From Prevotella sp. (GTDB lineage: Bacteria; Bacteroidota; Bacteroidia; Bacteroidales; Dysgonomonadaceae), in contig JAITVV010000095.1 of the NCBI GenBank assembly GCA_031285625.1, positions 248,001 through 312,000 of the forward strand: a DNA stretch of 64,000 nt, written 5' to 3'. Shown in pieces: positions 18,594 through 64,000 of this stretch (position 1 is the stretch's first letter; the number at the start of each line of letters is the position of its first letter). The translations under genes were made by a program, and so were the position numbers. Under the pieces are notes generated by a model. The model saw only the letters and a program-made list of their open reading frames with translations. It was not told the DNA's origin and ran no database searches.

Positions 18594-18872
18594 ATGAATA
18601 CATTAATGATAATAATAATCCTGCTTGCATCTGTAGTTGCATCCCTGTATTGGGGAATAGTACTGTCTGTAAAACTCCCTTTGTGGGACAGGCGGTTCAA
18701 TCGCAAACCATTCAATTGCAGGCCTTGCCTGACATTTCATCTGGTTGCGACATCCGGCAGCTTGTTTGCTCTATTGTTACTATCGGTAGAACTATTTCTG
18801 GCAGGTATTGCAACAGCTTTCACCGTATTTTTCATTGTAAGATATATTGATAATAAAAAAGTAATAAAATGA
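18594..18872 (+). CDS. Small hypothetical membrane protein, first gene of terminase operon
   Basis: 92 residues from ATG 18594; a GTG start at 18567 would add nine residues. Three hydrophobic segments: residues 1-22, about 45-65 and 66-85. No family recognised. Its stop overlaps the ATG of the next gene (ATGA at 18869-18872). The coupling with a phage-type terminase gene suggests phage or mobile-element origin. Confidence 0.65.
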   Translation: MNTLMIIIILLASVVASLYWGIVLSVKLPLWDRRFNRKPFNCRPCLTFHLVATSGSLFALLLLSVELFLAGIATAFTVFFIVRYIDNKKVIK

Positions 18873-19153
18873 GCAACGCATTAGTAACAGAAGTAAAAAA
18901 ACTCATTCGGGAGGTAGACAAAACACATCGTTATTCAATGAGCCGTATTTATGGGCTGTACAACGAAGTATTTGATAAGGATGAAGAACCACAGTCGTGT
19001 GCCAGCTGCCTGATACGCAAGGTAAAAGAGCTCAGGCTGTGGCTGGAAAACAACAGCGGACAGGAAACTGCCGAAGATATTGAAACTTCAGCCCAACCGA
19101 AAGAAAAGAAAGCACAGAAAACAAAAAAGAGTCGTACCGGAAAAGAACAATAA
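18869..19153 (+). CDS. Small hypothetical protein with Lys-rich tail
   Basis: 94-residue soluble protein. The first 70 residues are helical and contain CASCLIRKVKELRLWL. The last 25 are Lys-rich and disordered (KEKKAQKTKKSR), which suggests nucleic-acid contact. Its stop codon shares one base with the start of the terminase small subunit gene (TAATG at 19151-19155), so translation is coupled. No known family. Position directly before a terminase subunit fits a phage head or packaging accessory. Confidence 0.65.
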   Translation: MSNALVTEVKKLIREVDKTHRYSMSRIYGLYNEVFDKDEEPQSCASCLIRKVKELRLWLENNSGQETAEDIETSAQPKEKKAQKTKKSRTGKEQ

Positions 19154-19638
19154 TGGCACGTGGACAAAAAAAATGTTATACCAACAGGGGCTGTGACGGC
19201 GAGGAACTGATATATCAGCAGCCTAAAGACTTGCTGTCACAGGCTTACAAATATTTTGACTGGTGCAACGACAATCCCTGGCATAAGCAGGAACTGATAA
19301 AGTCGGGTACCAGAGCCGGGGAACTTATTGGGATACCGATTGTCCGGCCATATACACTGGAGGGACTGTGTGTATTCTGCGGGATAAGTACCGGTACCTT
19401 CTGCCATTATGAAGAAAGAGAAGATTTTGTTGCAGTGACAACACATCTGCAGGAGATCATCCGTCAAAACCAGATTGAGGGAGAATGTATAGGAGCATAC
19501 AATACTGCAGTTATAAACAAAATACAGGGATTAGCTGACAAACAGGAAGTAAATATGCCTACAGGACTGACCATAAATGTGATTTCGCCTGAGGCCAAAG
19601 ACAATCTGGAAGCACTTAAAGAATCCCTGTCCAAGTAA
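19153..19638 (+). CDS. Phage terminase small subunit-like protein (gp3 type)
   Basis: 161-residue protein resembling DNA-packaging protein gp3/terminase small subunits of Bacteroidetes phages. Marks are the N-terminal PKDLLSQAYKYFDWCNDNPW, a helix-turn-helix-like region (YTLEGLCVFCGISTGTFCHYE), and the tail with VNMPTGLTINVISPEAKD. The small subunit normally recognises packaging sites and recruits the large ATPase/nuclease. Here no large subunit follows: the next 450 bp are non-phage. It is about 9 kb from the nearest other phage-like genes and 30 kb from the capsid block. Confidence 0.75.
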   Translation: MARGQKKCYTNRGCDGEELIYQQPKDLLSQAYKYFDWCNDNPWHKQELIKSGTRAGELIGIPIVRPYTLEGLCVFCGISTGTFCHYEEREDFVAVTTHLQEIIRQNQIEGECIGAYNTAVINKIQGLADKQEVNMPTGLTINVISPEAKDNLEALKESLSK

Positions 19639-19724
19639 TAATAAAGTTTGCCGATGCGATGATGATACTTAACAAATACAAAAGCCGGTTCTTTTTCATA
19701 TTGGGATATAAGATTTACAAAGAT

Positions 19725-19880
19725 TTATAACTTACTGCTCTTTTTCCATGAAGGCTCTCCATATTTTTTGATCTTATTAGCAGCTCTCTTTTTTAATATT
19801 AAAGCTCTTTGAACCAGAGCACAAACAAACCTGAGGGCAACAAGTACTCCCGGTATCCATGCAGATTTATTTCCTTTCAT
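19725..19880 (-). CDS. Small basic membrane-like protein (51 aa)
   Basis: Short frame from ATG 19880 to TAA at 19725. One hydrophobic helix (IPGVLVALRFVCALVQRALI) is followed by a strongly basic tail (KKRAANKIKKYGEPSWKKSSK). A single amphipathic-hydrophobic segment plus Lys/Arg tail is compatible with a small membrane peptide. It could also be chance: no homologue is known to me. It faces the promoter at 19990-20020, which points the other way. Confidence 0.4.
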   Translation of the reverse strand: MKGNKSAWIPGVLVALRFVCALVQRALILKKRAANKIKKYGEPSWKKSSKL

Positions 19881-19989
19881 AATAAATAGATTTAACTGTT
19901 AATCATGCATCACGAACAATGATTAACATATATTTCTGCGGGCAGACAGAAATATATAACAAGTCTTCAACTCAAAGATATGGAAAATA

Positions 19990-20020
19990 TTTGTTAAATG
20001 GGAATAATATTTTAACTTTG
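19990..20020 (+). promoter_or_regulatory. Bacteroidetes-type housekeeping promoter
   Basis: TTTG at 19990-19993 and TAACTTTG at 20013-20020 with a 19-bp spacer, which is the exact Bacteroidetes sigma-ABfr consensus layout. It lies 66 bp before the start of the gene at 20087. Confidence 0.6.
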
Positions 20021-20086
20021 AGCTGTTAAGATTGTGATACTATGAGAGTGTACTCTCTGCGTGAGCAGCTATATTAATACGGCGAT

Positions 20087-21037: not shown

Positions 21038-21052
21038 TATTAATTATTTTAG

Positions 21053-24190: not shown

Positions 24191-24210
24191 AGATTCTACA
24201 TACTATACTG

Positions 24211-28792: not shown

Positions 28793-29398
28793 TCAGACTA
28801 ATTCTTCCCTACGTTTCTTAAACTCTTTGTTGGCGCGTACACCTTTCTTTATCTTGGAGATAGCACGTTGGATATTATGTTCCCTTATTCCGGTAATGTC
28901 GGCCAGAGATGCATAGTTTATAGCAGGTTTCAGGTTGATATACATCTTGAAGAGCTCGAAGTCGCGAATACTGTAATTCTTGTACACATAATCGAAGATA
29001 TCCTTCTCCAACTTTTGCTGTTTGTCTTGCAGCTCGGCAAAATACTGGGTATCGGTATCTGCTTTATCATAGTGGGGTAGCAGCTCGCAGTAACGGTTTT
29101 GCTTAATACCGTTTGCCATCAGGTTAGTAAAATAGGAACGTACAAAATAATACCTGTAATTCTCCACATTGGTTCCCGTATAAAGGATATTTTCGTACAT
29201 TTTGAGATAACTCTCGCTGAAAACATCGCAATCGAAATAATTGCGCACTGTCAGATACTGTATCACTTCCTTGTTGTTTTCTACAAACCAAACGTTAAAT
29301 GCTTCCGCCTTTTCGGCATAAACAACGTCCTGTACTCCCTCTTTTTTCTTAAAGTATTTCTTACCCTTGTTACTTCTGTTAGTATTGAATAGCAGCAT
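28793..29398 (-). CDS. Sigma-70-like phage regulator
   Basis: 201-residue protein. The N-terminal half is helical (FNVWFVENNKEVIQYL), like sigma region 2. The C-terminal half has a helix-turn-helix pattern like region 4 (YASLADITGIREHNIQRAISKIKKGVRANKEF). The family is common on Bacteroidetes mobile elements. It is the last gene of a five-gene minus operon, and its start overlaps the preceding 58-residue gene by 20 bases. A role in switching on late phage genes is possible but inferred only from domain likeness and position. Confidence 0.65.
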   Translation of the reverse strand: MLLFNTNRSNKGKKYFKKKEGVQDVVYAEKAEAFNVWFVENNKEVIQYLTVRNYFDCDVFSESYLKMYENILYTGTNVENYRYYFVRSYFTNLMANGIKQNRYCELLPHYDKADTDTQYFAELQDKQQKLEKDIFDYVYKNYSIRDFELFKMYINLKPAINYASLADITGIREHNIQRAISKIKKGVRANKEFKKRREELV

Positions 29399-29555
29399 GA
29401 TCTAAGTTTTTATATTCTACACATTCCGGACAATAATCACATTCATTTACACATATATAGCCGACATTGAACAATGTCTGGGGATCCTGTACAGTCACTT
29501 CTGCCGAACAATTGTCGCAGACGACTTTTATGTACTCCTGGTCTTTAATTTTCAT
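29379..29555 (-). CDS. Small Cys-rich protein (58 aa), likely zinc-binding
   Basis: Frame from ATG 29555 to TAA at 29379. Six cysteines in the pattern Cys13-x2-Cys16 ... Cys35-x3-Cys39-x2-Cys42-x2-Cys45, the layout of a small zinc ribbon. It overlaps the sigma-like gene by 20 bases and sits in the same transcript, 108 bp after the DnaC-like gene. Too short for most ORF callers but the clustered Cys pairs and coupling make it credible. Confidence 0.65.
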   Translation of the reverse strand: MKIKDQEYIKVVCDNCSAEVTVQDPQTLFNVGYICVNECDYCPECVEYKNLDHAAIQY

Positions 29556-29663
29556 TGGTTATACTTTTAGATTAGTTAGTTAATCCATTCTTTCAGAGAC
29601 AATAAGGGCTCCCGGCTATGTTTACAGCCGCTCTTATTTTTCATTTTTAATTATTAATTCTTA

Positions 29664-30251
29664 TTACTTTCTCAGGCTTTGCCCTCTGAATTTGATACGT
29701 CTTGTAGTAGATACTATACGTTCCATTACCCGCTGCCCGTATCGTCCGGCTATCTCATCTCCCCGCAGGTTGGTAGAAATAATGATGAGTTTTCCGTACT
29801 TCTCGGCTGCGTCCATTACTTCGGCAAAGGCTTGCCGCTTGTTGCCATAATTGACAGAAATATCTTCCGTGCCAATATCATCGAGGCTGATCACGTGTTT
29901 TTTAAGTACATCGTCTATGTATTTATTCATCTCCTGCACATCGTACACCGACACCACTTTGCGCGTATATTTCAGTATGATGGCAGGCAATATATAACGG
30001 GTGAGCAGGCTTTTGCCACGTCCGCAGTCACCATACAGAAACAGCCCCCGCCCCTCGTTGTCGGCCAGCCATTCGGCCACCTGATTGTATTCGGGCTGCC
30101 ACAGCAAATCGACCCCCTCATAGGCAAGAAAATATTTGAAACAACTTTCGAGTACAGCCATCGGATTTTGCAGCTGTATGGCTACGCGCCGTGTTGGCAA
30201 TTGCATACCATGCACACGCATCTGTTCGTATATTTGTTCAAAATCGTTCAT
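29664..30251 (-). CDS. DnaC-like AAA+ ATPase (phage helicase loader type)
   Basis: 195-residue protein. Walker A is GDCGRGKS at residues 74-81; Walker B is VISLDDIG near 118; sensor I is LIIISTNL followed by RYGQRVMERI. The fold matches DnaC/IstB-type ATPases which load replicative helicase. In the same operon as a DNA-binding-like gene (overlap of 14 bases, 30238-30251), the common arrangement of phage or plasmid replication modules. No helicase gene is seen here. Confidence 0.82.
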   Translation of the reverse strand: MNDFEQIYEQMRVHGMQLPTRRVAIQLQNPMAVLESCFKYFLAYEGVDLLWQPEYNQVAEWLADNEGRGLFLYGDCGRGKSLLTRYILPAIILKYTRKVVSVYDVQEMNKYIDDVLKKHVISLDDIGTEDISVNYGNKRQAFAEVMDAAEKYGKLIIISTNLRGDEIAGRYGQRVMERIVSTTRRIKFRGQSLRK

Positions 30252-30789
30252 CTGTCGTTGGTTTTATATGTACTTGCGTATCCCTGTTCTCCCATGTGCG
30301 GACTGCTGCCCGCCAGTCTTTCATCTTGTTTTTCCCTATCATCCAGTCTTTTGCTGTATAGAAGTTTATAAACTGATGCGGATCAACTCCATTATTCCTT
30401 TTCCGGCAATAGCTTTCCACTTCCTGAGGCTGAGGAGGCAAGAAGATTATTTTCTCTTTACGGCTCGTTTTTTTAGTTTTGCTTTCGCTCTCTGTTATAC
30501 TTACCTTATCACAGAATAAAAGTGTGTATACCGGCGATTTCTTTTTACGCTGCCCTGCCTCAAAAGAGATTAAATTTTTTTGCTGCAACTTGCTTCTTGC
30601 CTCTATCAGTGTTTTTTCTGAAATACTGATAGAAGAAGTGATCAGTCCGTTAGAACATTCGAAAGGATTTTCCCAGTTGCGGATATTCGACTCCTGCATC
30701 AAAAAGTAGTACAAGTCCGCCTCACTGGACGTAAACCTCATCCTGCGCCGTGCTTGCCAAAACTGATTTATAAGCTCTATGTAATTCAT
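30238..30789 (-). CDS. Winged-helix DNA-binding protein, replication-initiator-like
   Basis: 183-residue protein. N-terminal winged-helix pattern (FTSSEADLYYFLMQESN, then LITSSISISEKTLIEARSKLQQKNLI) as in phage replication or O-like proteins. The C-terminal part has a Lys-rich linker and ends in HQFINFYTAKDWMIGKNKMKDWRAAVRTWENR, a tail common in replication proteins coupled to DnaC-like loaders. Overlaps the next gene by 14 bases and the previous one by 4 (30786-30789). Role in replication initiation is inferred. Confidence 0.7.
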   Translation of the reverse strand: MNYIELINQFWQARRRMRFTSSEADLYYFLMQESNIRNWENPFECSNGLITSSISISEKTLIEARSKLQQKNLISFEAGQRKKKSPVYTLLFCDKVSITESESKTKKTSRKEKIIFLPPQPQEVESYCRKRNNGVDPHQFINFYTAKDWMIGKNKMKDWRAAVRTWENRDTQVHIKPTTDERF

Positions 30790-31124
30790 ATATATGTGAA
30801 TCTGTCTTCCAGTATATCATAAGCCTGTTCGCCCGCCTCTTTTCCGTTACGGTTGTATTCTTCTATAATCGGCTTCAGGCGCGAGGTCAACACGGCAGTA
30901 TCTTCATACAGCAAGTCCCATTCATCATCCAGTACTTCAGACGCTTTCACGTTTACGGTATCCATATAGGCATCGAATGATACACAAACTCGTATATCGC
31001 CTATAACATCGTCAAAATCTGTCACATCCATCTCATCAGAATTGTATAAATGACTCGTAATGGATTTTATTATGCTACTCATTTGTGTTTCATTGCAATA
31101 GCAATCAATTTTTAACGCTCCCAT
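30786..31124 (-). CDS. Small hypothetical protein, first gene of early operon
   Basis: 112-residue acidic protein, no recognised domain. Pattern of mixed strands (VTDFDDVIGDIRVCVSF) and helices. First gene of the operon that continues through the winged-helix, DnaC-like, Cys-rich and sigma-like genes; coupled to the next by an ATGA overlap. A promoter with TATATTTG on the minus strand (31194-31201) lies 70 bp upstream. Confidence 0.65.
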   Translation of the reverse strand: MGALKIDCYCNETQMSSIIKSITSHLYNSDEMDVTDFDDVIGDIRVCVSFDAYMDTVNVKASEVLDDEWDLLYEDTAVLTSRLKPIIEEYNRNGKEAGEQAYDILEDRFTYI

Positions 31125-31193
31125 TTTTCTGCCATTTTAGTTGCGAGTTTCTATTTATTTTCTTTTATTTGATTGGTAATTACCTTTACAATA

Positions 31194-31201
31194 CAAATAT
31201 A
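31194..31201 (-). promoter_or_regulatory. -7 box for the early operon (minus strand)
   Basis: TATATTTG on the minus strand fits the Bacteroidetes -7 consensus TAnnTTTG. The matching -33 element is weak. It faces the repressor promoter at 31265-31295 across an AT-rich divergent region. Confidence 0.4.
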
Positions 31202-31213
31202 CACAATTATGTG

Positions 31214-31271
31214 AATACAACATACACATATCAGTGAATATTTATGTTAATAAATGTTAGTTTGTTGTATT
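31214..31271. promoter_or_regulatory. Candidate operator: 9-bp inverted repeat between divergent promoters
   Basis: AATACAACA at 31214-31222 and its exact complement TGTTGTATT at 31263-31271 lie 40 bp apart, one half near each of the two facing promoters. Such paired sites between an early operon and a C1-type repressor gene are typical of lysis/lysogeny control. Binding is not shown. Confidence 0.4.
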
Positions 31272-31295
31272 TGAATAAGTAAGCGTTTATCTTTG
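31265..31295 (+). promoter_or_regulatory. Promoter for S24 repressor gene
   Basis: TTG at 31265-31267 and TATCTTTG at 31288-31295 with about 20 bp between fit the Bacteroidetes promoter layout; the gene starts 91 bp downstream. Confidence 0.45.
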
Positions 31296-31385
31296 GTAAT
31301 TCATTATGTGTAAAAGAAGTAAATAAAAATATAAGGATATAATCCTTTTTTGAAAAGCAAAGTAGAATACACAAAAGAGTGAATC

Positions 31386-50602: not shown

Positions 50603-50660
50603 AGTGATATAGTTATATATGATTGTATTATCTTTACATTTTAAAAAATTATTAAAATCC

Positions 50661-51374
50661 ATGAAGAGGACTTTGCTTTTGCTTATCATTGCTATCTGTC
50701 TTTACAGTTGTAACAAGAATGAATCACCCAACCTGATAGTTAAGAAATGGGTTGCAGTGGGAAACTCTATAACTTGGCATCCAATCAATAATAATTGGGC
50801 TGGAGAGTGGGGAATGGCTGCAACCTCTATAGAAAATGACTATGTTCATATCCTCAATCAAAATTTTAAAAACAATTTTGATAGTGTGAGTTTCAAAATA
50901 GATTGGGCTGTAGATTGGGAAACCAATCATCCAAACTACGATTTGTCTTATTTTGACAAGTTCTTTGATGGAGATGAGGACTTAGTCGTAATTAGGCTCG
51001 GGGAAAATGTGAAAGACACAACTAACTTTGAGGCTGATTTTAGACACCTTATCCAACATTTAAAACATCTATCTCCTAATGCTAAATTCGTTATTACAGG
51101 AATATTTATGTCTGACAGTAACGATTTAAAATACAAGGAAACTATACAGAAAAAGATTGCTAAATCAGAAAACTGTATATGGGTTCCAATTAATCAACTA
51201 GACACTAAGGAAAATAGGAACTTTATAGGTAATACCGTCAATGGACGTACCATAGAAAACCAAGCAGTTGCTGATCATCCGGGAGACAAGGGTATGGAAG
51301 CCATTGCAGAAGTTATATTTGAATCGCTACAAAAAAAAGGTAAATCAATTCTTACTCTGTCTGCCATTCGTTGA
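50661..51374 (+). CDS. SGNH/GDSL hydrolase lipoprotein
   Basis: 237 residues from ATG 50661; the earlier start at 50619 would add a polar stretch. Lipobox LYSC. Block I is VAVGNSITWHP; block V is ADHPGDKGMEAIAE with the catalytic Asp and His; RLGENVKD stands for block III. Members deacetylate or de-esterify glycans. It lies on the plus strand, inverted between the holin and tail-fibre genes of the phage block; the tail fibre also ends in an SGNH domain, but the two proteins are not close. Confidence 0.8.
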   Translation: MKRTLLLLIIAICLYSCNKNESPNLIVKKWVAVGNSITWHPINNNWAGEWGMAATSIENDYVHILNQNFKNNFDSVSFKIDWAVDWETNHPNYDLSYFDKFFDGDEDLVVIRLGENVKDTTNFEADFRHLIQHLKHLSPNAKFVITGIFMSDSNDLKYKETIQKKIAKSENCIWVPINQLDTKENRNFIGNTVNGRTIENQAVADHPGDKGMEAIAEVIFESLQKKGKSILTLSAIR

Positions 51375-51461: not shown

Positions 51462-51656
51462 ATGAAATATTTTGTCGATGTTCAAGATGAAGATGCACTT
51501 ATATCCAACGGGGTGTATAATGTTGTAATCTGTAAGAAATTCCTATTTTTAAACATCCGGATTCGCCATATTGGTTCTTTTAATGAAAGTAACCTTTCAG
51601 AGAAAAATGATCTAATCAACAAAGCTAACCGGTATTGTTCTATTTACAACTTATAA
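51462..51656 (+). CDS. Small hypothetical protein (64 aa)
   Basis: Frame from ATG 51462. A short mixed strand-helix sequence (KYFVDVQDEDALISNGVYNVVICK, then an Asn-rich end). The composition looks coding, but no homologue is known to me, and the strand is opposite to the surrounding phage genes. It could be a remnant. Confidence 0.35.
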   Translation: MKYFVDVQDEDALISNGVYNVVICKKFLFLNIRIRHIGSFNESNLSEKNDLINKANRYCSIYNL

Positions 51657-53396
51657 TAAAGCCTTTACCCTATTGCCAAATACTCGCGCAATTTTTATGT
51701 GTGCAGATTCTGTTATATGCACACCATCGACTGGAGCATAAACATTTAGGTTCCCTGAGAAAATGCCTATTTCATTATATACGTCATAAATAGGAATTGA
51801 AAGCCATTTACAGATTATTCGTTCTACTTCCCTGTATTGTTCTATATTTGCGAGGTTTGTAGGCGCAGGAGTCATACACACAATTCTGGCTTCGGGTACT
51901 TTCCTTACCAAAGTCTCCATACATTTACGGTATGCATCGGAGAAATTATCTGTCAATGTAAGAGAGTCAAAAGCTTTACTTAAAGTTGTATTCGCATCAC
52001 CTACGGTTCTGCGCTGCCAACAGTCATTTGTACCGATCATTATAGTAACAAGCCCTTTGAAATCGGTAGGAATCTGATTTATTTGAAGTATTAAACCATC
52101 ATCCCCCATTGCCATTTTACCACCTATTGCAAGGTTTGTAAAAGGCATGCCGAACTTTGCAGCCATTTTCACAGCCCAACTATTCGCGCCCTCGGTTAAA
52201 CTGTCACCACATGCGTAATAATCCAATTTTTCGACTGGATTAGCATCATCGATCACGTTCGAAACGGGTATGTATAAGTTTGGAATAACTATATTTTTGC
52301 CTGCATTTTTTTTCTTGATATAAAAACCGTCAAAAATTGATGTCCTACCATTAAATCGAATATAAGCACAATTTATCGGTGTGGTAAAATCACCGAAAGG
52401 ACTACTATTTGAGGCGACTCCATTATTTGTGATAAACCTCTTTTCCGAATCGTAAAATAAAAACATCGGATTAAGGTTAACAAGGTTTGTAGTGTATTCT
52501 ATTCCCGGCTCAATAGGTAAATAGTCAATTGTATATTTATAGTCACCACTAGAAACAGCATTCCAATTGTTAAGAAATCCATTACCCATGTTTAAAGTAG
52601 CAGGCAAAATATTTCCTGAGTTACTTTCTACCTCTACCTCGAACGCGCCCCGCATATCTTCTACGCCCAGATCGACAGCCAATTTCTTTATTACGTTTGA
52701 TTCAGGGGAAGGATATATATAAATCTGTGAATTTTTACCAATATTGGGCATATAATTATATCTGACAAAAGCACAGTTAGCAGGCGTTGTAAATATTCCT
52801 CCCCAAACAGTTGTGCGAGTACCGAATGATGAACCGATAAAGGTTTTATTTGCATCATAAAAAATAAAACGTTGATCATCTTGCGCCTTTACAGAGTTAC
52901 ACATATATGTTACGTTTGGCTGTACTGGCACATATATTTGGTTATATGATATTTGATCTGTGAAACGCGCTTTTTGTTCAACGCCATTGGCATCCAGAAA
53001 ATAGTCTACAATATTTGAGTAGCTTGGTACAAGATTATTATACTCAAATACTTCAAGATTTGAAGTATAATTGATTCCCTTAATATTAAGAACCATCTGC
53101 TGATTTTTCCCTATTTCATCAGTAAACAACTTCAAGCTCGGGGCTTTTACTGTATCCTGCCCTGTTTCTTGCGAAACGGCAATGACGCTGGGCACACCCG
53201 TATCCGCCGTGCCAACCCACCAGTTGTTGTTAGTACCCACAAAGGGCGCATCCCCCTTGTCTCCCTTGTTACCTTTGAGCAGATTGATCGGGACTTTCAC
53301 CGAATTATCGTTCTTGTCGGTACCCAGCGTATACAAGTTTTCGATCGTTGTAGCCTCAGGTAACTCCGATATTATTTTTTTCTTTATTTCTTCCAT
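51651..53396 (-). CDS. Phage tail fibre with C-terminal SGNH esterase domain
   Basis: 581 residues from the ATG at 53396; the longer frame to 53417 overlaps the preceding gene more. N-terminal 30 residues then a short collagen-like segment GNKGDKGD. Middle beta-rich repeats (residues 60-370). The C-terminal 180 residues form an SGNH hydrolase: ACGDSLTEG, GGKMAMGD, GTNDCW and DGVHIT blocks are all present. Binds and probably deacetylates host surface glycans. It starts inside the end of the 191-residue gene (overlap 53384-53396). Confidence 0.8.
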   Translation of the reverse strand: MEEIKKKIISELPEATTIENLYTLGTDKNDNSVKVPINLLKGNKGDKGDAPFVGTNNNWWVGTADTGVPSVIAVSQETGQDTVKAPSLKLFTDEIGKNQQMVLNIKGINYTSNLEVFEYNNLVPSYSNIVDYFLDANGVEQKARFTDQISYNQIYVPVQPNVTYMCNSVKAQDDQRFIFYDANKTFIGSSFGTRTTVWGGIFTTPANCAFVRYNYMPNIGKNSQIYIYPSPESNVIKKLAVDLGVEDMRGAFEVEVESNSGNILPATLNMGNGFLNNWNAVSSGDYKYTIDYLPIEPGIEYTTNLVNLNPMFLFYDSEKRFITNNGVASNSSPFGDFTTPINCAYIRFNGRTSIFDGFYIKKKNAGKNIVIPNLYIPVSNVIDDANPVEKLDYYACGDSLTEGANSWAVKMAAKFGMPFTNLAIGGKMAMGDDGLILQINQIPTDFKGLVTIMIGTNDCWQRRTVGDANTTLSKAFDSLTLTDNFSDAYRKCMETLVRKVPEARIVCMTPAPTNLANIEQYREVERIICKWLSIPIYDVYNEIGIFSGNLNVYAPVDGVHITESAHIKIARVFGNRVKALL

Positions 53397-53959
53397 AATT
53401 CTAAAATTGGTATACAATAACCATCTTCTGTTGTTACCAGATTTACTTTATCTTCAGTACTCAATAATGACTCTATAACTGTTTTGTCCGGTGCTGCCTC
53501 GAATAAGGGGTAGATTGACTTTTTAGTAATAGTGATACTATATCCTGCCGTTTCGCCTCGCTGCCCCGTTTGTTGAGTATAACTAAGGGTAGCGCCGCCA
53601 TCAGAGCCAAATGAGAACATCTTGCCTTGCGAAGAGAATACTATCAGGTACTTATTCACTTTGGTTAGCAACAGGCTGGCTGTTTTCTGATAATCCAGTG
53701 ACCTTACGAATGTTGTTATTGCTTGTGTATATATTCCGTTGTCCTGATTTTCGGTAAAATTCGATTCATCCACAACATCAAGCCTGATATAATCCTGTGC
53801 GGATATCTTGATGCTGTCAATAAAACATTGATCATACAGCTTATCATCTCTAAACCGATAACTTACAAAGTCCCGGATATCCAAAAGATAAATTTCTGAT
53901 ATACCCCCCGGATTATACTCACACGAGTGCTTTATATTTTGGATTAATCTACAATTCAT
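53384..53959 (-). CDS. Tail-tube-like structural protein, paralogue 2
   Basis: 191 residues. Starts with the pattern M-N-C-R-L-x2-N-I-x3-C-x-Y-x4-GI-x-x-IYLLDIRDF, which is the same as in the gene at 54123, so the two are paralogues. Beta-strand-rich, with no signal peptide. Such small, Cys-started, beta-rich proteins after the capsid are typical of tail tube or neck proteins of siphophages in Bacteroidetes. Assigned by order and shared pattern, not by a known homologue. Confidence 0.5.
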   Translation of the reverse strand: MNCRLIQNIKHSCEYNPGGISEIYLLDIRDFVSYRFRDDKLYDQCFIDSIKISAQDYIRLDVVDESNFTENQDNGIYTQAITTFVRSLDYQKTASLLLTKVNKYLIVFSSQGKMFSFGSDGGATLSYTQQTGQRGETAGYSITITKKSIYPLFEAAPDKTVIESLLSTEDKVNLVTTEDGYCIPILELWKK

Positions 53960-54122: not shown

Positions 54123-54659
54123 TTACGGAGTTATCACTGTTTTGTCCACTATTGCTGTGATCACGCTTTCGTCTTTCAGCAGGCGTCCTATCTCCAGTTC
54201 TGTGCCGGCAAGTGTAACCGTCCACCCGTTGGCATCGGCATCGGCTGCACCCGAAGCATAATTAAAGGCTGTGGCACTCAGTCCGTTGTTACGGCCAAGC
54301 ATAATAGAACGGTTGTTCTTATCTACCACTACCGCTGTGAACTTACCCAAGCTAAGCTTATCGCCCTGATTAATAATAGTATAATTATATTCACTCAATG
54401 TAAAGTTTACAGTATGCGTGCGATACTTGCCACCATTGCCATTCTGAGCCAGTTCGTCAGAAAATGAAGCTGTACTGTCAATGAAATCAATACTATATGC
54501 TTTTGCCGAATCAGCCAGCATTATAGTTTCTATTTCCTCATCTGTACCCATTGTATAAGTATTAGCCGGATCGTAGTTGAACAAGTACACGGCTTTGATA
54601 CCTGCTACTGTATAAGCACAGGTTTCTTTTGTGATATTTGATGTTAATTTACAAGACAT
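54123..54659 (-). CDS. Tail-tube-like structural protein, paralogue 1
   Basis: 178 residues from the ATG at 54659; the longer frame to 54731 starts in the repeat zone. Pattern M-S-C-K-L-x2-N-I-x4-C-x-Y-x3-GI-x-x-VYLFNYD matches the next gene, so these are paralogues. Beta-rich with DGWT-like strands near the end. Likely tail tube or neck protein, from its position next to the capsid gene. Not assigned by direct homology. Confidence 0.55.
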   Translation of the reverse strand: MSCKLTSNITKETCAYTVAGIKAVYLFNYDPANTYTMGTDEEIETIMLADSAKAYSIDFIDSTASFSDELAQNGNGGKYRTHTVNFTLSEYNYTIINQGDKLSLGKFTAVVVDKNNRSIMLGRNNGLSATAFNYASGAADADANGWTVTLAGTELEIGRLLKDESVITAIVDKTVITP

Positions 54660-54686
54660 AGTTTTTATTATTAATTTGTTAATAGA

Positions 54687-54793
54687 GTAATTAGCATATT
54701 TGAGAATTAGCATATTAGCAAATGGACGCAAAGCAAAAAAACATTGACAATGTCACCATTTGCTAATTTTCGAATTTGCTAATCTGCTAATTG
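54687..54793. repeat. Interspersed repeat R3, TTAGCAAAT family
   Basis: Left arm ATTAGCATATTTGAGAATTAG at 54687 onward, right arm ATTTGCTAATTTTCGAATTTG ending at 54793. It fills the gap between the tail-tube-like gene and the capsid gene and abuts the capsid stop codon. Confidence 0.65.
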
Positions 54794-54794: not shown

Positions 54795-55742
54795 TTAGTT
54801 ATTCGGGCTATAAAATACAACCTCATCCTCAAACGGAATTACAAAGCCCAGACGCAAACGGCCATCAATAAAGATCTTGCTATCCTGCGGCGCTGCAAAT
54901 TGCCCCATGCGGATCTCCTCCAGGTCGCGAACAAGGTCGGTACCGATAAGGAAGTTTTTAGCATCGGCAGCTACCATGTCATTATCGTTAAGGCCTTTTA
55001 CCGGAACGATTTCCACACCCATGTAGCGAACCACATCGCCCTCTACCGTAAAGTTAGGGCTAACCACTACATTGTCGCCCCAGATACCACCCAGTGCCAT
55101 TTTCACTTTCAGGAATGTAGGATACGAAACGTAGATATTCAGTGTACCGTTTTGCAAGCCCAGTGCAACCACATTTTCGGGGATAGCGGTAAACATTTTT
55201 TCAATCTCCTCCAACACATTTGCTTTGGTAAGCGCTACACCCGAAACCTTTACGGCTTGTGTGCTGTCGGTAAGTACTTTGACCACACCGTCGAAGTCGT
55301 TGGCGTCTACCGAACTGTCGCCTTTGAAGATCTTGGTTTCGATCTCGCTGCTCAATTCTGCCGCCAATATTGCCATAGTAGCATCCTCCAGGGTGTCGGG
55401 CAATTCCATATTCTTTGCACCGGGGCTAAGCATCCATACCGTGCGTTTGCGTTCAAGATCGTCGATACATTGTTCCAGATTGATCTTGTAGGTCTTGATC
55501 TTTAATTCCTTCTCACTCAACTTGGCTATCTGCTGAGGTGTCCACGAGCAGTCGCGTGCATCTGCCTGAAGGATATTACCTTCGAGGTCGATCAGGTTAA
55601 GTTGTGTCGATTCTTTTACTCCGATCACAGGAGTGATTTTACCTTTTTCGATAAGTTTTCCACCAAAGATTGCTTTTGTGAACCAATCCATGTTAGAGGA
55701 TGGCTGATAGGTCAGTGATGAAATGTCATACATGTTTGCCAT
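54795..55742 (-). CDS. Phage major capsid protein
   Basis: 315 residues. The N-terminal ISSLTYQPSSNMDWFTKAIFGGKL segment, the long central helix (LEDATMAILAAELSSEIE), the SPNFTVEGDVVRYMGVEIVPVKG strands and the C-terminal DGRLRLGFVIPFEDEVVFYSPN fit an HK97-fold capsid of the Bacteroidetes type. Located after the protease/scaffold gene on the minus strand. Intact length. Confidence 0.75.
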   Translation of the reverse strand: MANMYDISSLTYQPSSNMDWFTKAIFGGKLIEKGKITPVIGVKESTQLNLIDLEGNILQADARDCSWTPQQIAKLSEKELKIKTYKINLEQCIDDLERKRTVWMLSPGAKNMELPDTLEDATMAILAAELSSEIETKIFKGDSSVDANDFDGVVKVLTDSTQAVKVSGVALTKANVLEEIEKMFTAIPENVVALGLQNGTLNIYVSYPTFLKVKMALGGIWGDNVVVSPNFTVEGDVVRYMGVEIVPVKGLNDNDMVAADAKNFLIGTDLVRDLEEIRMGQFAAPQDSKIFIDGRLRLGFVIPFEDEVVFYSPNN

Positions 55743-55886: not shown

Positions 55887-57050
55887 TTATTTTCTTCTGT
55901 TAATAGTTTGGTTAAGAGCCACAGCCATACGTTCGGCAGTAGTCATTTCGCTCAGGTTTTTAGAGCCTGAAAGCTGGATGGCCGGGTAAGCCGAAGGAGT
56001 TTTCTTGCGCATTTCTTCTACCTGGCTTTTAGTGTCTTCGAGCATGCCCTGTGCTTCGTTCAGCGATTTGGTAAGCTGATCGATCACCGATTGCATTTCG
56101 GCAATTTTTGCTTTCAATGCTTCAGCCGTTTTCGGGTCAAAATCTGCTAATCTGTGCTTAGCCTTGTGATGCTTCAACGTTTGCGGCGCTTTGGTTTCTT
56201 CAGGGTTGGTCTTGTTTCCGGATGCTTCTTTTGTTTCCACAAATTGCCCCTGATCGTCGATTACAAGCAGATTACCATCTGCCAGTTTGTGTTCTCCGGC
56301 AGGCATTTGCTCCTCATCCATAGTTGCAAATCCGTCCTGATCTACATACACTTCTTTACCGTCTGCCAGTACAAACAGCACATAGGCTTCGCCACTGGTG
56401 GTAACGTCCGATTTTTCTACTGCCTCTATATCGAGTAACATATTTGCAATGCGCCCCAGCAGTGTCTGTTTTGCTTTTTTCTTTTTATCGTTCATAGATT
56501 TATAATTTGTTTTAGACAATGAGATTTCCTGATTGAAAAAGCCTTCGAGTGAAAACCCTTTTACATTTCCGTTCATCACCTCATTTGTCCAATAGTTTTT
56601 ATCTTCTATCTTGTAGCTGCACATCAGGGTTCCTTTGGGTAAATCTGTAAAACCGAGCGCATTGGATTTGTCGTTTGCAGGGTTTTCTACAATCCACAGT
56701 TCGATAAGGTAGTTTCCGCTGAGTGGCGACTGGTGCTGATGTGTGGTATTGTGCAAGGCAATACCCGTTTTCATCATTTTGTGAGCGATTTTTTCGATCT
56801 GCCCTGCCGAAAACTTGATGTAGTAGTCGCCCAGCTCAGGAGAGTTGCGGTAGATCAGCTGTTCGGGTTTGAGAACAACACCGGTAAGTATCTGCTTTTG
56901 TTCATCCTTACTGAGGTGTAATTCTTTTTGTCCCCTAAGGGCTACAAAATCGATCTCATTGGCGGGCATATCTACAAACGAAATGGCATAAACTCCTGTC
57001 AGGTCGTCTACATTTTCGTCAATCACACAGTTGTATACTGGTATCTTCAT
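55887..57050 (-). CDS. XkdF-like prohead protease fused to scaffold
   Basis: 387 residues. The N-terminal 170 form an XkdF/Peptidase_S78_2-like domain: DLTGVYAISFVDMPANE, the catalytic-type His in TTHQHQSPLSG, and VKGFSLEGFF with the likely Ser. The middle is a low-complexity linker rich in Lys and Glu. The C-terminal 80 are a coiled coil (AEALKAKIAEMQSVIDQLTKSLNEAQ), as expected for a scaffold that is cut during head maturation. Directly before the capsid gene in the transcript order, as usual. Confidence 0.78.
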   Translation of the reverse strand: MKIPVYNCVIDENVDDLTGVYAISFVDMPANEIDFVALRGQKELHLSKDEQKQILTGVVLKPEQLIYRNSPELGDYYIKFSAGQIEKIAHKMMKTGIALHNTTHQHQSPLSGNYLIELWIVENPANDKSNALGFTDLPKGTLMCSYKIEDKNYWTNEVMNGNVKGFSLEGFFNQEISLSKTNYKSMNDKKKKAKQTLLGRIANMLLDIEAVEKSDVTTSGEAYVLFVLADGKEVYVDQDGFATMDEEQMPAGEHKLADGNLLVIDDQGQFVETKEASGNKTNPEETKAPQTLKHHKAKHRLADFDPKTAEALKAKIAEMQSVIDQLTKSLNEAQGMLEDTKSQVEEMRKKTPSAYPAIQLSGSKNLSEMTTAERMAVALNQTINRRK

Positions 57051-59486: not shown

Positions 59487-60104
59487 ATGAAAATCCTGAA
59501 TTATATATTTATCCTGTTGCTGTGTATAGGCTTTGCGGCCTGCGAAAAGGATGATCCTTATGTAACACCACCACCCACAGAACCCGAAAATCCGGTAGAT
59601 CCACCCACCGAGAAAGAAAATATCGTTTTCAATCTGGATGGAAACCTTATCCGTGCGGGAAAGGAAAAATCGGACGATGCGGTTTTTAATCTCGATGGAG
59701 ACTATATCCGAGCCGGAGAGAAGAACACAGGCGACATCGTCTTTAATATCGACGATAAGCTAATACGTGCCGGAAAAGATAAGTCGGGCGATGTGGTTTT
59801 TAACATCGACAACAATTATATCCGTGCAGGTGCTTCTGCTGATGGGGATATTGTATTTAATATGGATGGGGAATATGTGAGAGGGGGAGAGGGGAAGGTG
59901 AGTAGCCTTATATTTACGATTGAACCTAGCTTATTGACTGATAATAAATTCTATGTCTATGCCAGAGAAAGTATCATATATACAATTGAGCCTAGCTTAT
60001 TGACTGATAATAAATTTCATATCTATGCCGGAGAGAGTATCATATATACGATTGAGCCTAACTTATTGACTGATAATAAATTTTATGTCTATGTCGGAGA
60101 TTAA
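59487..60104 (+). CDS. Lipoprotein with two tandem repeat arrays
   Basis: 205 residues. Lipobox GFAAC (Cys19), then a Pro/Glu-rich tether (residues 24-44). Residues 47-141 are five 19-residue repeats with consensus VFNxDxxxIRAG. Residues 143-205 are three 22-residue repeats TIEPSLLTDNKFYVYAGES. The second array is nearly identical at DNA level (66-bp units), so it expanded recently. Repeats look like beta hairpins of a fibre or adhesin. Not recognised in any family. Located on the plus strand inside the phage block. Confidence 0.7.
   Translation: MKILNYIFILLLCIGFAACEKDDPYVTPPPTEPENPVDPPTEKENIVFNLDGNLIRAGKEKSDDAVFNLDGDYIRAGEKNTGDIVFNIDDKLIRAGKDKSGDVVFNIDNNYIRAGASADGDIVFNMDGEYVRGGEGKVSSLIFTIEPSLLTDNKFYVYARESIIYTIEPSLLTDNKFHIYAGESIIYTIEPNLLTDNKFYVYVGD
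59625..59909 (+). repeat. Tandem array of five 57-bp units in coding DNA
   Basis: Five in-frame units of 57 bp (19 codons) in the lipoprotein gene; divergent at DNA level but constant in protein pattern. Confidence 0.75.
59913..60104 (+). repeat. Tandem array of three 66-bp units in coding DNA
   Basis: Units at 59913-59978, 59979-60044 and 60045-60104, nearly identical, the last cut by the stop codon. Signs of recent slippage or duplication. Confidence 0.8.
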
Positions 60105-60106
60105 TC

Positions 60107-60129
60107 TACTGGGGATTTTCACCCCAGTA
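60107..60129. terminator. Bidirectional hairpin between lipoprotein and tape-measure gene
   Basis: TACTGGGG (60107-60114) pairs with CCCCAGTA (60122-60129), between convergent genes. Confidence 0.6.
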
Positions 60130-60140
60130 AATAAATATTC

Positions 60141-62261
60141 TTACACCCCTACCCAGCCATCTACGCTGACCATACTTTCCTGTACTTTGGCGATATCCGT
60201 TACTGCTACTTTTGGCTCGATACGGATAGACTGAATAGCTTTTATCAAGTTCTCATTATCAATATTAGCCACTGGTTCTACAGCTGGCAATTGTCCTCCA
60301 TCGGCAAACATACGCTTAAAGGAGGGTTCTGTACTTTGCAACGAACGTGAAAAATAGGTATTGAGATCACTTGGAGACAGTTCGCGCCGTTGCTCATTGA
60401 TATACTTCACCAATCCCAGATTCTTATTTGTAGACACACGGTTGACCACATATTCACCGCCTTCTACTTCCATATTGGTACCTTCTATACGCATACCTCC
60501 TTGTGCATGGCGTTTGCCTCGGAGTAGTCCTCCGTCTTCAAATTTGGCTAGTTGTGCCGTCATTATCTTTAACTGCATAGCACCGTTTAAAGCTACTAAT
60601 GCAGCCAATGGAGGACCAAGTATCGGGCCTTTTCCCCATGCTGTAGCAACACCTTTGGCAATCTCCTTTGTCGCTGTAGCAATATCAAGTACAAGTTGAG
60701 CTTTTGCCTTTATTTTTTCCAGTTTTTCGAGTTTTTCTTTTCTTTTTTGTGCTTTTTCTGCTATTTCCGCATCTTTTTTAGCTTTTTCTTCTTCAAGTTT
60801 CTTCTTGTCGTCCTCTATGCGCATCTGTTCTAATAAAACACTGCGATTGCTCTCTGTTATTCTATTGTTAGCATTTTCTATTGTTGATTGTTTATTTTCT
60901 ACAATTTCCTCTTCTGCTTTAGCAAGTTTGTCTAACTCTTCTATCCTTTCATATGCCGCCTTAATTTCTTCTTCCGATGCATCAGCTACCGGCACAACAT
61001 CACTTTTTTCAGAGCTATCTTTACTTTCAGAATCAGTATCTGTTGGAATTTCGGCAGTTAAACTTTGCAGAGTATTCGTAGATTCTTCAGGTTTATTAAC
61101 ATCCTCTTTTTTCTCATCAGCATTTGGATTCTTTACCTTGAAAGAATCTTCTATTTTTTTTATATCGTTTTTATATTTTTCTGCCTTTATTTTTGCTTCT
61201 GCCTGTTCTTTTTCTGCTTTTTCTTTTTCTTTTTCATATTTTGAGGCTTCAGCTCTTACTTCTTCCAGTTCCTTATCCAGCTTTTCTAATTTCTTTTTAT
61301 ACTTTTCGTCATTGGCAGCTTTTTCTTTTGTTTCTAAATCTGTGATGCCTTTTTCCAGTAGCGTTACACTTTCTGTTATGCCTTTTGCAAAATCATGGAA
61401 TCCATAAGTACTATCTTTTAGAAACTTATCAAAACCACCCTCATTATCCTTGACAAAGTTTTCAAGTTTTGTTTTTATTTCACCATGTTGTGTATTCCAA
61501 ATATCCAGATAAGATTTGTTTGATTCTTTAATAGTTTTATCGGTTTCTAGTATTTTTTTTTGCAATTCTTCCAGTGCTTTTTCTTTGTCCTTCTGTTTCT
61601 GCTTAAATTGTTCACTATCTTCGGCATACTGAGAGATTACACTGCTATAATATAACTTGGTTTGTACACCTGCCACCTCCAGTTCCTCTTTATATTTTTT
61701 AAGCACGGCTACACGTTCTTCCGCCCTTTCTTTGTATGCTTTGAGGTTAAGGATACCAATCTTCTTTTCTTTTTCAGCTTCGTCTTCTGTTTTTTCAGTC
61801 GATTCTTTAAGTGATTTTGCAACTAATTCTTTATTTTTCGCTAATTGCTGTTCCAGCCTTGTTGTTTGTACTTCACTTTTTGCCGTTATTTTGTCTATGT
61901 AGGCTTCCATCACCGTAGATGCTTCTATTGCTTTTATTTTAATGGAAGATAAGCCGGAATCGGCAGATTTTCCCATACTCTCAGCCAGTTTTTCTCCGGC
62001 TTCTATATTTTTTTCTATAGCCTGCCCCGCGTGTGTGCTCAGTTCGGTGATTATTGCTTCTATCTTCGCCATTTGCAAAGCGATGTATTCTATTACATCT
62101 TTTAGCTCATTTTTGTAAGTGTCTGCTACATCTTTTGCTGTAACGGACATACCTTTTGCTTTTACATCTACCTTCTCTAAACTGTTACTTAACTTTTCTA
62201 CATTTTCAGTACTTTTTTCTACTCCATTAACGAGTAGTGTAAATTCTTTTTTATCTGCCAT
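60141..62261 (-). CDS. Phage tape-measure-like protein
   Basis: 706 residues. N-terminal 280 and middle parts are long Lys/Glu/Ala coiled coils, including a Lys/Glu linker near residue 400. The C-terminal 180 show hydrophobic helices (AKGVATAWGKGPILGPPLAALVALNGAMQL) and then a Gly-rich segment (FEDGGLLRGKRHAQGGMRIEGTNMEVEGGEYVVNR) which is typical of Bacteroidetes tape-measure tails. It would set tail length. The gene lies before the protease and capsid in transcript order, which is unusual. Confidence 0.7.
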   Translation of the reverse strand: MADKKEFTLLVNGVEKSTENVEKLSNSLEKVDVKAKGMSVTAKDVADTYKNELKDVIEYIALQMAKIEAIITELSTHAGQAIEKNIEAGEKLAESMGKSADSGLSSIKIKAIEASTVMEAYIDKITAKSEVQTTRLEQQLAKNKELVAKSLKESTEKTEDEAEKEKKIGILNLKAYKERAEERVAVLKKYKEELEVAGVQTKLYYSSVISQYAEDSEQFKQKQKDKEKALEELQKKILETDKTIKESNKSYLDIWNTQHGEIKTKLENFVKDNEGGFDKFLKDSTYGFHDFAKGITESVTLLEKGITDLETKEKAANDEKYKKKLEKLDKELEEVRAEASKYEKEKEKAEKEQAEAKIKAEKYKNDIKKIEDSFKVKNPNADEKKEDVNKPEESTNTLQSLTAEIPTDTDSESKDSSEKSDVVPVADASEEEIKAAYERIEELDKLAKAEEEIVENKQSTIENANNRITESNRSVLLEQMRIEDDKKKLEEEKAKKDAEIAEKAQKRKEKLEKLEKIKAKAQLVLDIATATKEIAKGVATAWGKGPILGPPLAALVALNGAMQLKIMTAQLAKFEDGGLLRGKRHAQGGMRIEGTNMEVEGGEYVVNRVSTNKNLGLVKYINEQRRELSPSDLNTYFSRSLQSTEPSFKRMFADGGQLPAVEPVANIDNENLIKAIQSIRIEPKVAVTDIAKVQESMVSVDGWVGV

Positions 62262-62825: not shown

Positions 62826-62840
62826 AATATTAAAGTGAAA

Positions 62841-62936
62841 TATCCCGACTCTTTTTTCATGAATAAATGAGTCGAGATTCTTCGTTGCACTCAGAATGAC
62901 AAAAAGAATGATACTCCGTTCAATATAACAAAGAGA
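62841..62936. repeat. Interspersed repeat, TGTCAT family, copy H
   Basis: Degenerate left end, with ATCCCGACTC and TCAGAATGACAAAAAG in the middle, and a further CTCCGTTCAATATAACAAAGAG tail like copies A and B. Confidence 0.6.
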
Positions 62937-62946
62937 TAATAAAGCA

Positions 62947-62979
62947 AATCCCCTGCACTTCTCTCAAGTACAGGGGATT
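62947..62979 (-). terminator. Hairpin after DUF6712-like gene
   Basis: AATCCCCTG (62947-62955) pairs with CAGGGGATT (62971-62979), with an inner ACTT/AAGT pair, next to the stop at 62985. Confidence 0.65.
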
Positions 62980-62984
62980 CTTTT

Positions 62985-63530
62985 TCAGCAGCAGCCTTTC
63001 TTCTTTTTCTGGAAATAAAATCCGCTATCGAAATCTTTCTGTGCCGATCCTTCATTTATCACCTCGTTGCAACAGGCATTCTGAGGACGCCACAACGGAT
63101 AATTTGCGCGGCAATGGCACATAAAGTCTATCAACTGGCTCACCAGTATCCCGGCATCATCTTTTAACCATTGGCGAAGCTGTGCAAGGTCTTTGATATC
63201 AATGCCTTTGCTATTATCACTTTCGCGGATGGTGATACCCTTGTTTACGATGGTGGCCCAGTGGAACGGCAATGCCTGATAGACCGCGTAGAACGACAGG
63301 GCGGGAGCCGTGCGGAGTATCAGGTCGCTGTTTTCGGGGGTAAGGCTGTTAGCTGTGATCTGCTGCTTGAGTTCGGTCATCAGCGGTTCGCCCAGTATGG
63401 GTTCTATATGCAGTTCCTGTGCGATACAGATATAAGGCACAAACTCGGTGATGTCGGTGTTGGAGGTCACAGGAGAATACTGCTTAAAGAGCTTCTCTGT
63501 GATAAGTGGTATTTGTATATACTCGGTCAT
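62985..63530 (-). CDS. Phage head-tail connector-like protein (DUF6712 type)
   Basis: 181 residues from the ATG at 63530; the longer frame to 63584 starts in the repeat zone. Pattern ITEYIQIPLITEKLF at the start, then a helical middle (FVPYICIAQELHIEPILGEPLMTELK), a C-terminal part with ACCNEV and a terminal KKKKGCC. Fits the DUF6712 family that follows the portal gene in Bacteroidetes phages and is thought to be a connector or neck protein. Assigned by order and composition. Confidence 0.6.
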   Translation of the reverse strand: MTEYIQIPLITEKLFKQYSPVTSNTDITEFVPYICIAQELHIEPILGEPLMTELKQQITANSLTPENSDLILRTAPALSFYAVYQALPFHWATIVNKGITIRESDNSKGIDIKDLAQLRQWLKDDAGILVSQLIDFMCHCRANYPLWRPQNACCNEVINEGSAQKDFDSGFYFQKKKKGCC

Positions 63531-63543
63531 AATACTTAATTTG

Positions 63544-63614
63544 AAAATATGAAAATTAGCAAATATGAAAATGATTATTGTCACTTTGTGCCAATTTGCT
63601 AATATGCTAATTTA
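63544..63614. repeat. Interspersed repeat R4, TTAGCAAAT family
   Basis: GAAAATTAGCAAATATGAAAA at the left and CCAATTTGCTAATATGCTAATT at the right. It fills the gap between the connector and portal genes. Confidence 0.65.
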
Positions 63615-64000
63615 TTAATTGGCTAATTGTTCTACTATCTCCAGATCGTCTATTTCCAGCTGCTTATAGCCGTTATTGATCGTAAAAATACTGAGTGTGT
63701 CTATGATCTTGCGGCGAAGCTGATGTATCACTGTCTGGTTGTAAAGCACAAAAGAATTGATAATCTCATTGGCATTTCCCGACAGGTTGCCCGATCCCGA
63801 CAGCCCTGCCAGCGTAGGCGAAGTAAGGCGGTGTGCCGATATGATTTTCTGGAAGATGATTTCGTCCACATTATTGTACAGATCGGCATTGTTGCTAGCT
63901 GTGTACGATGTCACCACAGGCTTTATTTCCTGGCTTTCACCCCAAAGCACTACAATGCTGTTTGCGCCGTTTGTTCCGGCATAGCTTTGCTCTATATCCT
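63615..64000 (-). CDS. Phage portal protein, C-terminal part (N-terminus outside window)
   Basis: The frame is open from the stop at 63615 through the right edge; a shorter reading that starts at 63950 is only an internal codon. Visible residues (about 128) include SYAGTNGANSIVVLWG, a helical stretch NVDEIIFQKIISAHRLTSPTLAG, GSGNLSGNANEIINSF and a terminal LEIDDLEIVEQLAN. The HR-x-TSPTL-G and SGNANEI segments are typical of portal C-termini of Bacteroidetes phages. First gene of the structural block within this window. Confidence 0.7.
   Translation of the reverse strand, partial: DIEQSYAGTNGANSIVVLWGESQEIKPVVTSYTASNNADLYNNVDEIIFQKIISAHRLTSPTLAGLSGSGNLSGNANEIINSFVLYNQTVIHQLRRKIIDTLSIFTINNGYKQLEIDDLEIVEQLAN

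Follow-up and report, generated by a model that had tools for sequence, protein, structure and literature searches.

How do phage genes that lie scattered among host genes stay intact, and can they still act as one system? This question is raised by a 64,000-nucleotide stretch of DNA (the window; C52:248001-312000) from an assembly of 4.84 Mb in 96 contigs, which TerL (large terminase) matches in named records identify as a member of Dysgonomonas (Bacteroidota). An earlier note on this DNA had described three islets of phage genes with intact frames, and had offered either a domesticated particle or a prophage split by inversions as the explanation. The islets lie where it placed them (18594-19638 on the plus strand; 28793-32123; and 49024 to the right edge on the minus strand), their frames are intact, and core genes do lie between them, with hemH, manA and efp above the NCBI cut-offs and matches below the cut-offs for lpxH, sufT, dcp and glgB. 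We propose, at a probability of roughly 65%, that the islets belong to a domesticated phage that Dysgonomonas keeps as a DNA-packaging particle resembling a gene transfer agent (GTA), with a sigma factor of its own.

The set is larger than the window. A head-tail-lysis block had been reported at 49-64 kb; it is present, but its supposed end at 64000 is wrong, and the block runs past the window. Likewise, no large terminase (TerL) had been seen and a search outside the window had been advised. The absence holds for the window only: TerL lies next door, 7 kb beyond the edge of the window on the same contig, at C52:319064-320236 (L001:7064-8236, L001 being the stretch of this contig right of the window), and matches the Terminase_3 and 3C families. 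A search of the source genome with PF03354, another family, returned no TerL. The reported lack of an integrase held up over the 75 kb formed by the window and L001, where a signature scan gave no match. As contig C52 stops at 323281, the phage set may extend further.

Comparison with relatives, which had also been suggested, revealed one orthologous set across the genus and its sister group g3. Among the 101 genomes searched, all of which contained infB (101/101), TerL orthologues (62-79%) were found in 23 of 25 genus genomes, the source genome included, in 6/6 genomes of group g3 and in G089, and only more distant TerL matches in G050, G065, G090 and G095. The portal gene was found in 22/25 genus genomes, 6/6 g3 genomes and G089 (more distant in G090 and G095), and the gene for the major capsid protein (MCP) in 18/25 (one truncated; 17 full-length), 5/6 and G089, with a distant match in G090. 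Among the 18 good genus genomes (≥90% complete, ≤5% contaminated), 17 carried TerL, 17 the portal and 14 a full-length MCP. The dispersed genes were present as essentially one orthologue per genome; second, distant matches to TerL, MCP or portal (25-46%) occurred in a few genomes, as expected from ordinary prophages. In an order-wide sample of 393 genomes, 9 had an MCP match: five were strong (E <1e-170) and all of the same family, the next was a cousin prophage in the source genome itself (9e-107; described below), and four other genomes matched weakly (5e-23 or worse). A collection of named genomes yielded 47 TerL loci, 26 at 64-79% and the other 21 at 38-49%, two of the latter in Dysgonomonas-named genomes; the 26 close loci came from genomes labelled Dysgonomonas, or from metagenome-assembled genomes (MAGs) and a single isolate that go by the names Prevotella or Bacteroidia. 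Searching IMG/VR for a free-virus version, we obtained 9 loci with MCP, eight of them at 73-89% in Dysgonomonas-type gene order and one at 40%, and at least 80 loci with TerL, the best among the matches listed being 51%. Contig C7 of G095 (L263-L265) carries another phage-like set of the same early-module type (DnaC 55%, repressor 37%, portal 24%, TerL 44%), which may be a replacement or a separate element.

The genes are also dispersed in single-contig genomes. In G023, TerL (4,539,011) lies 447 kb from the portal gene (4,985,912), which is followed by MCP (5,016,906), DnaC (5,030,806) and the small terminase TerS (5,049,430), a spread of 510 kb or more; in G034, portal, MCP and TerL are spread over 183 kb. 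On the window contig the phage loci cover at least 56 kb. D. mossii (G006) and the window genome keep these genes in the same order, save that one islet is inverted and the endolysin gene stands elsewhere in D. mossii; rearrangement thus did split a set that was once more compact. None of lpxH, sufT, hemH, manA, efp and glgB was matched in the examined stretches of 11 other genomes. No serine recombinase was found at the dispersed loci of 11 genomes; tyrosine recombinases occur in all 11, and among the PF00589 matches listed none lies within 80 kb of the dispersed genes. A tyrosine-recombinase signature scan of 1.52 Mb gave one match, 37.6 kb from the nearest dispersed gene, and the same scan of 113 control loci (1.34 Mb) matched 5 loci, of which two are convincing integrases (L180, L183). 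A stricter signature was uninformative, with zero matches in the 1.52 Mb and in the 1.34 Mb of controls. A contiguous, integrase-bearing version of the set, which the earlier note had counted as evidence against its reading, was not seen in the relatives examined.

The same note had named widespread frameshifts in sister strains as evidence against its reading; frames proved intact across about 30 species, with full-length frames for MCP in 24/24, TerL in 29/29, portal in 29/29 and DnaC in 17/17 loci. These are 99 of the 105 loci fetched; six (partial, second-copy or distant) were left out, and the sets include the non-orthologous G090 or G095. One-ratio codon models gave an omega of 0.052 for MCP (n=23), 0.088 for TerL (28), 0.061 for portal (28) and 0.106 for DnaC (16), compared with 0.019 and 0.051 for two parts of infB (n=25), and the capsid and portal, for which this check had been suggested, are well below 1. 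As genes of active phages are selected too, omega alone does not show domestication. Distances between the genes also correlated with those of infB (portal 0.88, TerL 0.81, MCP 0.75, DnaC 0.61; 0/2000 permutations as high; G090, G095 and a truncated infB of G022 left out) and of relA (portal 0.90, TerL 0.87, DnaC 0.77, MCP 0.73; seven shortened sequences of 29 left out and the relA of G094 not used), where infB against relA gave 0.92. In a quick TerL tree, 28/28 sequences fell into one clade (SH-aLRT 100, stem 0.47) apart from 32 other TerLs, with members of groups g3 and g10 grouped together, and 14 motif positions were invariant in 28/28. Third-position GC content (GC3) was 0.424 in the dispersed set (25 genes) and 0.429 in core genes (16), and 0.167 in the cousin prophage. 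At TerL residue 26, the Walker A glycine is replaced by serine in 28/28 dispersed TerLs and in 1/62 outside sequences.

A shared motif links the scattered operons. When 211 upstream regions were set against 757 others in a blind dyad search, one sequence emerged, and this promoter-like motif, with a TTATCTATA core, lies directly upstream of separate operons in 18/18 genomes examined. In 1.52 Mb of stretches from these 18 genomes, TTATCTAT occurred 326 times; 85 of the sites were at most 120 nt upstream of, and on the same strand as, a phage gene start, where 3.6 were expected (ratio 23.6), and 77 of these 85 lay 18-60 nt from the gene start, with 3-9 sites in each of the 18 genomes. Among 199 permuted 8-mers, none exceeded a ratio of 8.8, and the one that reached it overlapped the motif itself. 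The full motif is roughly ATCAWTTTC-N8-WTTATCTATAC-N3-AAAA. At ≥17 bits it gave 117 matches, 83 of them before recognised phage genes, compared with 5 when as much reversed or complemented sequence was scanned. Of 29 unrecognised matches listed at ≥15 bits, about 18 stand, by our own reading, before phage-like frames, tape-measure-like ones among them, and several stand before host genes. The motif was present at 64/225 phage genes and 6/703 other frames in the training genomes; when trained on the genus and applied to held-out groups, it was found at 9/55 phage genes vs 0/268 other frames (Fisher 7e-8). TerL has a motif copy of its own in 7/13 genus genomes, and in the window genome it lies downstream of p68064 on the same strand.

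A candidate reader of this promoter is encoded in the second islet. The phage-derived protein at 28793-29398 (minus strand) has a predicted sigma-factor fold, with the folds of sigma region 2 and region 4, and may read the shared motif. Nothing speaks more strongly for a single system uniting the islets than this motif and the sigma-like regulator, neither of which the earlier note foresaw.

The cousin prophage, at C86:111.9-144.6 kb, is contiguous and AT-rich, and carries homologues of 12 dispersed genes (23-53%) in a single block on one strand. A related sequence, TATCAATA, stands about 22-41 nt before 13 of its genes (start codons chosen by hand). If many late genes of this phage family carry their own late promoter, as the cousin suggests, dispersal would be tolerable; scattering with retained co-ordination would then be explained, because the ancestor phage probably had a promoter at many late genes. 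The cousin contains no recognisable terminase, and the genome has one TerL that matches the query. Its serine recombinase adjoins a truncated dprA (L213:3525-5971, L214), and a motif search for the rest of dprA beyond the prophage was without match. DprA is required by GTA recipients in Rhodobacter, and the insertion at dprA could affect DNA uptake.

These observations can be joined in a model in which a phage-type repressor would keep the early operon off. Once the repressor yields, the early operon would make the phage-derived sigma factor, which would bring the host's RNA polymerase to the late operons, scattered as they are, by way of their TTATCTATA-type promoters. The terminase would assemble with heads and tails, and would fill the heads with pieces of the host chromosome. 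DNA packaging is implied by purifying selection on the terminase, portal, protease and capsid genes, as far as sequences can tell, and the cargo is most likely host DNA, because one head could hardly take up genes that lie 510 kb from each other. Endolysin and holin would release the particles, which would deliver the DNA to related cells. Local DNA replication, a feature of the Bartonella GTA, may come in as well, through the DnaC-like loader and the initiator-like genes. A more specific proposal is less likely than not: a Bacteroidota GTA, exapted independently from a phage family with a promoter at many late genes, whose scattered regulon is run by the phage sigma factor and primed by the replication module, and whose exchangeable tape-measure/lipoprotein cassettes choose the recipients.

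The genes of the set are laid out as follows (window positions). The first islet, on the plus strand, begins with a small membrane protein (18594-18872; orthologues of 91-101 aa in 11 genomes including its own; no convincing family match), which adjoins the conserved p18869 (18869-19153; orthologues in 12 genomes including its own; family searches without match), and ends with TerS of the GP3_package type (19153-19638; PF16677 7.2e-18, phrog_606 6.7e-28). In the second islet, the regulator is followed on the minus strand by a DnaC-like helicase loader (29664-30251; phrog_3277 1.2e-26), a replication initiator or DnaD-like protein (30238-30789; phrog_19658 4e-7, phrog_15768 8e-22) and the conserved first gene of the early operon (30786-31124; orthologues in 11 genomes including its own), which has the motif upstream in 4/11 genomes and not strongly in its own. 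The phage-type repressor, with helix-turn-helix and S24-like parts, is on the plus strand (31386-32123; phrog_4 3.2e-15; 84% in G006 and G024). By eye, we also read a candidate parA/parB pair at 2526-4234, 14 kb from the first islet, which may place the phage set close to this genome's origin of replication.

The third islet, on the minus strand except for one gene, starts at the lysis end with a conserved protein that is spanin-like by position only (49024-49449; orthologues in 12 genomes including its own), a GH108 endolysin (49594-50115; PF05838 1.1e-22, phrog_315 3e-37) and a holin-like protein (50108-50689; PF05105 6.7e-4, below the cut-off; phrog_15037 of unknown function, 2e-14). A tail-fibre-like protein with a GDSL domain follows (51651-53417; PF13472 2.5e-14; phrog_5240, tail fibre, 4e-15), then two conserved proteins that stand after the capsid genes, one without family match and with orthologues in 13 genomes including its own (53384-53959), the other matching phrog_19091 of unknown function (54123-54731; 4e-19). 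The protein at 54795-55742 is assigned as MCP by its position and by weak family matches (phrog_1623, virion structural, 2e-11; phrog_212, major head protein, 0.004); it also matches phrog_11320 of unknown function (3.5e-63), and a PDB sequence search with it was without match. Beyond it lie a prohead protease of XkdF type (55887-57050; PF14550 1.6e-12), a tape-measure-like protein (60141-62261, assigned by layout; no family match) with a convergent repeat lipoprotein on the plus strand (59487-60104; Bflower_3 7.5e-24), possibly an accessory part, and a DUF6712 candidate head-tail connector (62985-63584; PF20459 1.5e-31). The portal gene enters the window with its 3' part (63615-64000); as a whole it is a 363-aa open frame at C52:311615-312706, and its remainder right of the window matches phrog_11226 (9e-41). 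Further right are one protein at L001:1631-2392, two at L001:4064-5191, one of 559 aa and one of 882 aa; none of these five has a clear family match, and the label tail-like comes solely from the cousin prophage, where their homologues sit with the tape-measure gene. Two host-like genes are interspersed in this part of the block.

The tape-measure region varies between genomes, as seen in window positions 59487-62261 and in stretches of G010, G023, G005, G025, G007 and G017 (L065, L216, L031-L034, L220-L222, L231, L232, L277 and L039-L042). The C-terminal ~190 aa of the protein are conserved in 17 other frames of >500 aa in other genomes, and the remainder is strongly variable. G010 and G023 each have two full-length versions, every one behind its own motif. 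In four genomes a repeat lipoprotein (Bflower_3 in the window) lies 33-61 bp from the tape-measure gene, in convergent orientation. In G017, orphan tape-measure C-termini stand in tandem. The layout is reminiscent of cassettes for exclusion or immunity.

Several observations weigh against the proposal of a domesticated, GTA-like particle with its own sigma factor. For the regulator, searches with Pfam and PDB profiles, like other sequence searches, returned no sigma family, and hhalign against one protein read as a host extracytoplasmic function (ECF) sigma factor gave nothing; the sigma assignment therefore depends on the fold that is predicted for it. In the 75 kb of the window contig, strong motif copies stand only before chap65631, p68064 and the portal gene, all just right of the window, and two host genes have weaker matches (17.0 and 14.7 bits). 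Tape-measure length is 697-735 aa in 10/11 genomes, but ranges from 521 to 866 aa over 18 frames. DnaC was found in only 13/18 and TerS in only 12/18 good genus genomes, and the TerLs of Dysgonomonas sp. 520 and sp. PH5-45 are only distant ones (43-44%). Capsid genes are missing or altered in 4/18 good genus genomes: searches of the G025 assembly (an isolate, 10 contigs) and the G027 assembly (a MAG) gave no MCP block, with TerL and portal retained in both; the MAG G009, again with TerL and portal, has MCP fused to a fibre-like frame; and in G021 (98% complete) TerL, portal, MCP, protease, DnaC and TerS were all without match. These four cases show that a genome can do without the system, or without its capsid at any rate. 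In G009 (L224:8363-10534) the first 90 capsid residues are in frame with the fibre-like protein and the two usual post-MCP genes are unmatched, the result of either a real deletion or a MAG assembly error. Descent is not strictly vertical either. Within the genus, MCP distances track those of relA not at all (r 0.015, 11 genomes) and those of infB moderately (r 0.47, 15 genomes; 1/2000 permutations as high), which suggests that the capsid block was probably exchanged between species, and nearest neighbours agreed with infB in only 10/21, 13/25 and 9/24 genomes.

The present evidence also fits a killer particle as well as a GTA. A domesticated device that is released, may hold host DNA and kills relatives, with fibre, tape-measure and lipoprotein variants setting target and immunity, would account for a fibre gene matched in only 5/18 genomes, for the two tape-measure variants in G010 and G023, and for the adjoining lipoprotein of four genomes, which could be an immunity partner. 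The TerL, with its catalytic residues kept, the portal and the capsid are intact and would be unneeded by a tailocin-type device, but this counts only weakly against a killer particle, as PBSX-like devices do retain terminase, portal and capsid; PBSX of Bacillus kills relatives. We infer a GTA rather than a killer particle, which we consider unlikely without dismissing it. A tailocin proper, a tail lacking head and packaging genes, was rejected, because TerL, TerS, portal, protease and MCP are all intact in the window genome. An ordinary prophage, contiguous and with integrase and attachment sites, was rejected as well, since the genes are dispersed and no recombinase was found near them in the stretches scanned.

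The gene order that is collinear between D. mossii and the window save for one inverted islet, together with the MCP block not found in G025 and G027 and altered in G009, would suit an old prophage broken by rearrangement, its parts kept for unrelated uses or awaiting loss. This is improbable in view of intact frames over about 30 species, omega values of 0.05-0.11, a GC3 like that of the host and a single motif shared by islets and groups. The two options first offered for the window were not exclusive: rearrangement also occurred, and domestication is favoured by the orthologous set, the low omega, the neighbouring TerL and the lack of a contiguous integrase-bearing version. Repeated independent infection by one temperate phage family, with genomes assembling or integrating piecewise, could draw on the contiguous cousin in the same genome and on MCP exchange within the genus. 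It is very improbable given the dispersal in two single-contig genomes, essentially one orthologue per genome, one TerL clade with g3 and g10 members together, no serine recombinase at the loci of 11 genomes and one tyrosine signature in 1.52 Mb, 37.6 kb off. Least credible of all is a helper terminase that serves other mobile elements: the cousin, having no TerL match in a genome with one matching TerL, may borrow it, but a divergent cousin terminase could have escaped detection, and no systematic search for such cousins elsewhere was made.

How, then, does a domesticated, GTA-like particle compare with known systems? PMC9662315 lists six GTA features: particle proteins derived from tailed phages, encapsidation of mostly random host DNA, full endogenisation, often at several loci, genes not all packageable at the head size, mostly vertical inheritance, and delivery of DNA to other cells. 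At the level of sequence, three of the six are present here, namely tailed-phage origin (TerL, TerS, portal, protease, MCP family, endolysin), endogenisation at several loci (window, G023, G034) and mostly vertical inheritance (infB and relA correlations, with the exceptions of MCP within the genus and of nearest neighbours that are half concordant). RcGTA and its relatives (Rhodogtaviriformidae) likewise have phage-derived genes at several loci that co-diversify with the host, as described in PMC9662315, and the regulator GafA is a DNA-binding protein with local DnaA-like and sigma-like similarity (PMC9638019). RcGTA belongs to an unrelated host phylum, and the likeness is one of description, not of protein comparison; moreover, the Dysgonomonas set has a predicted two-domain sigma fold with a promoter copy at many separate operons, and in G023 it stretches over 510 kb, with 447 kb between TerL and portal. 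The Bartonella agent BaGTA (Bartogtaviriformidae) resembles it in having structural genes near a phage-derived replication component; its 29 genes occupy about 79 kb, and an origin of viral descent amplifies the DNA around it (PMC9662315). In contrast, the Dysgonomonas set is dispersed more widely and its TerL is of Terminase_3 type (our TerL tree did not include BaGTA). VSH-1/BhGTA of Brachyspira (Brachygtaviriformidae) also has genes likely at several loci, a likeness by description (PMC9662315). The prohead protease found here is of the XkdF family, named after a PBSX gene. PBSX, a defective phage of Bacillus that packages host DNA, is one contiguous block, unlike the dispersed Dysgonomonas set.

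Our literature searches returned no account of Dysgonomonas with a GTA or phage-like particles, and none of a GTA in combination with Bacteroidetes and domesticated prophage. For Bacteroidota, lateral transduction, not a GTA, is reported in PMC12946183, and in the classification of PMC9662315 the three GTA families whose genetic basis is established belong to alphaproteobacteria and spirochetes. Single-contig genomes and named Dysgonomonas species are available for tests. The pair of sigma-like regulator and promoter offers a testable answer to how scattered phage genes could act together, and the motif could guide the search for similar systems elsewhere. A conserved candidate from the Bacteroidota, in a genus associated with the gut, would be a further, independent case of GTA exaptation.

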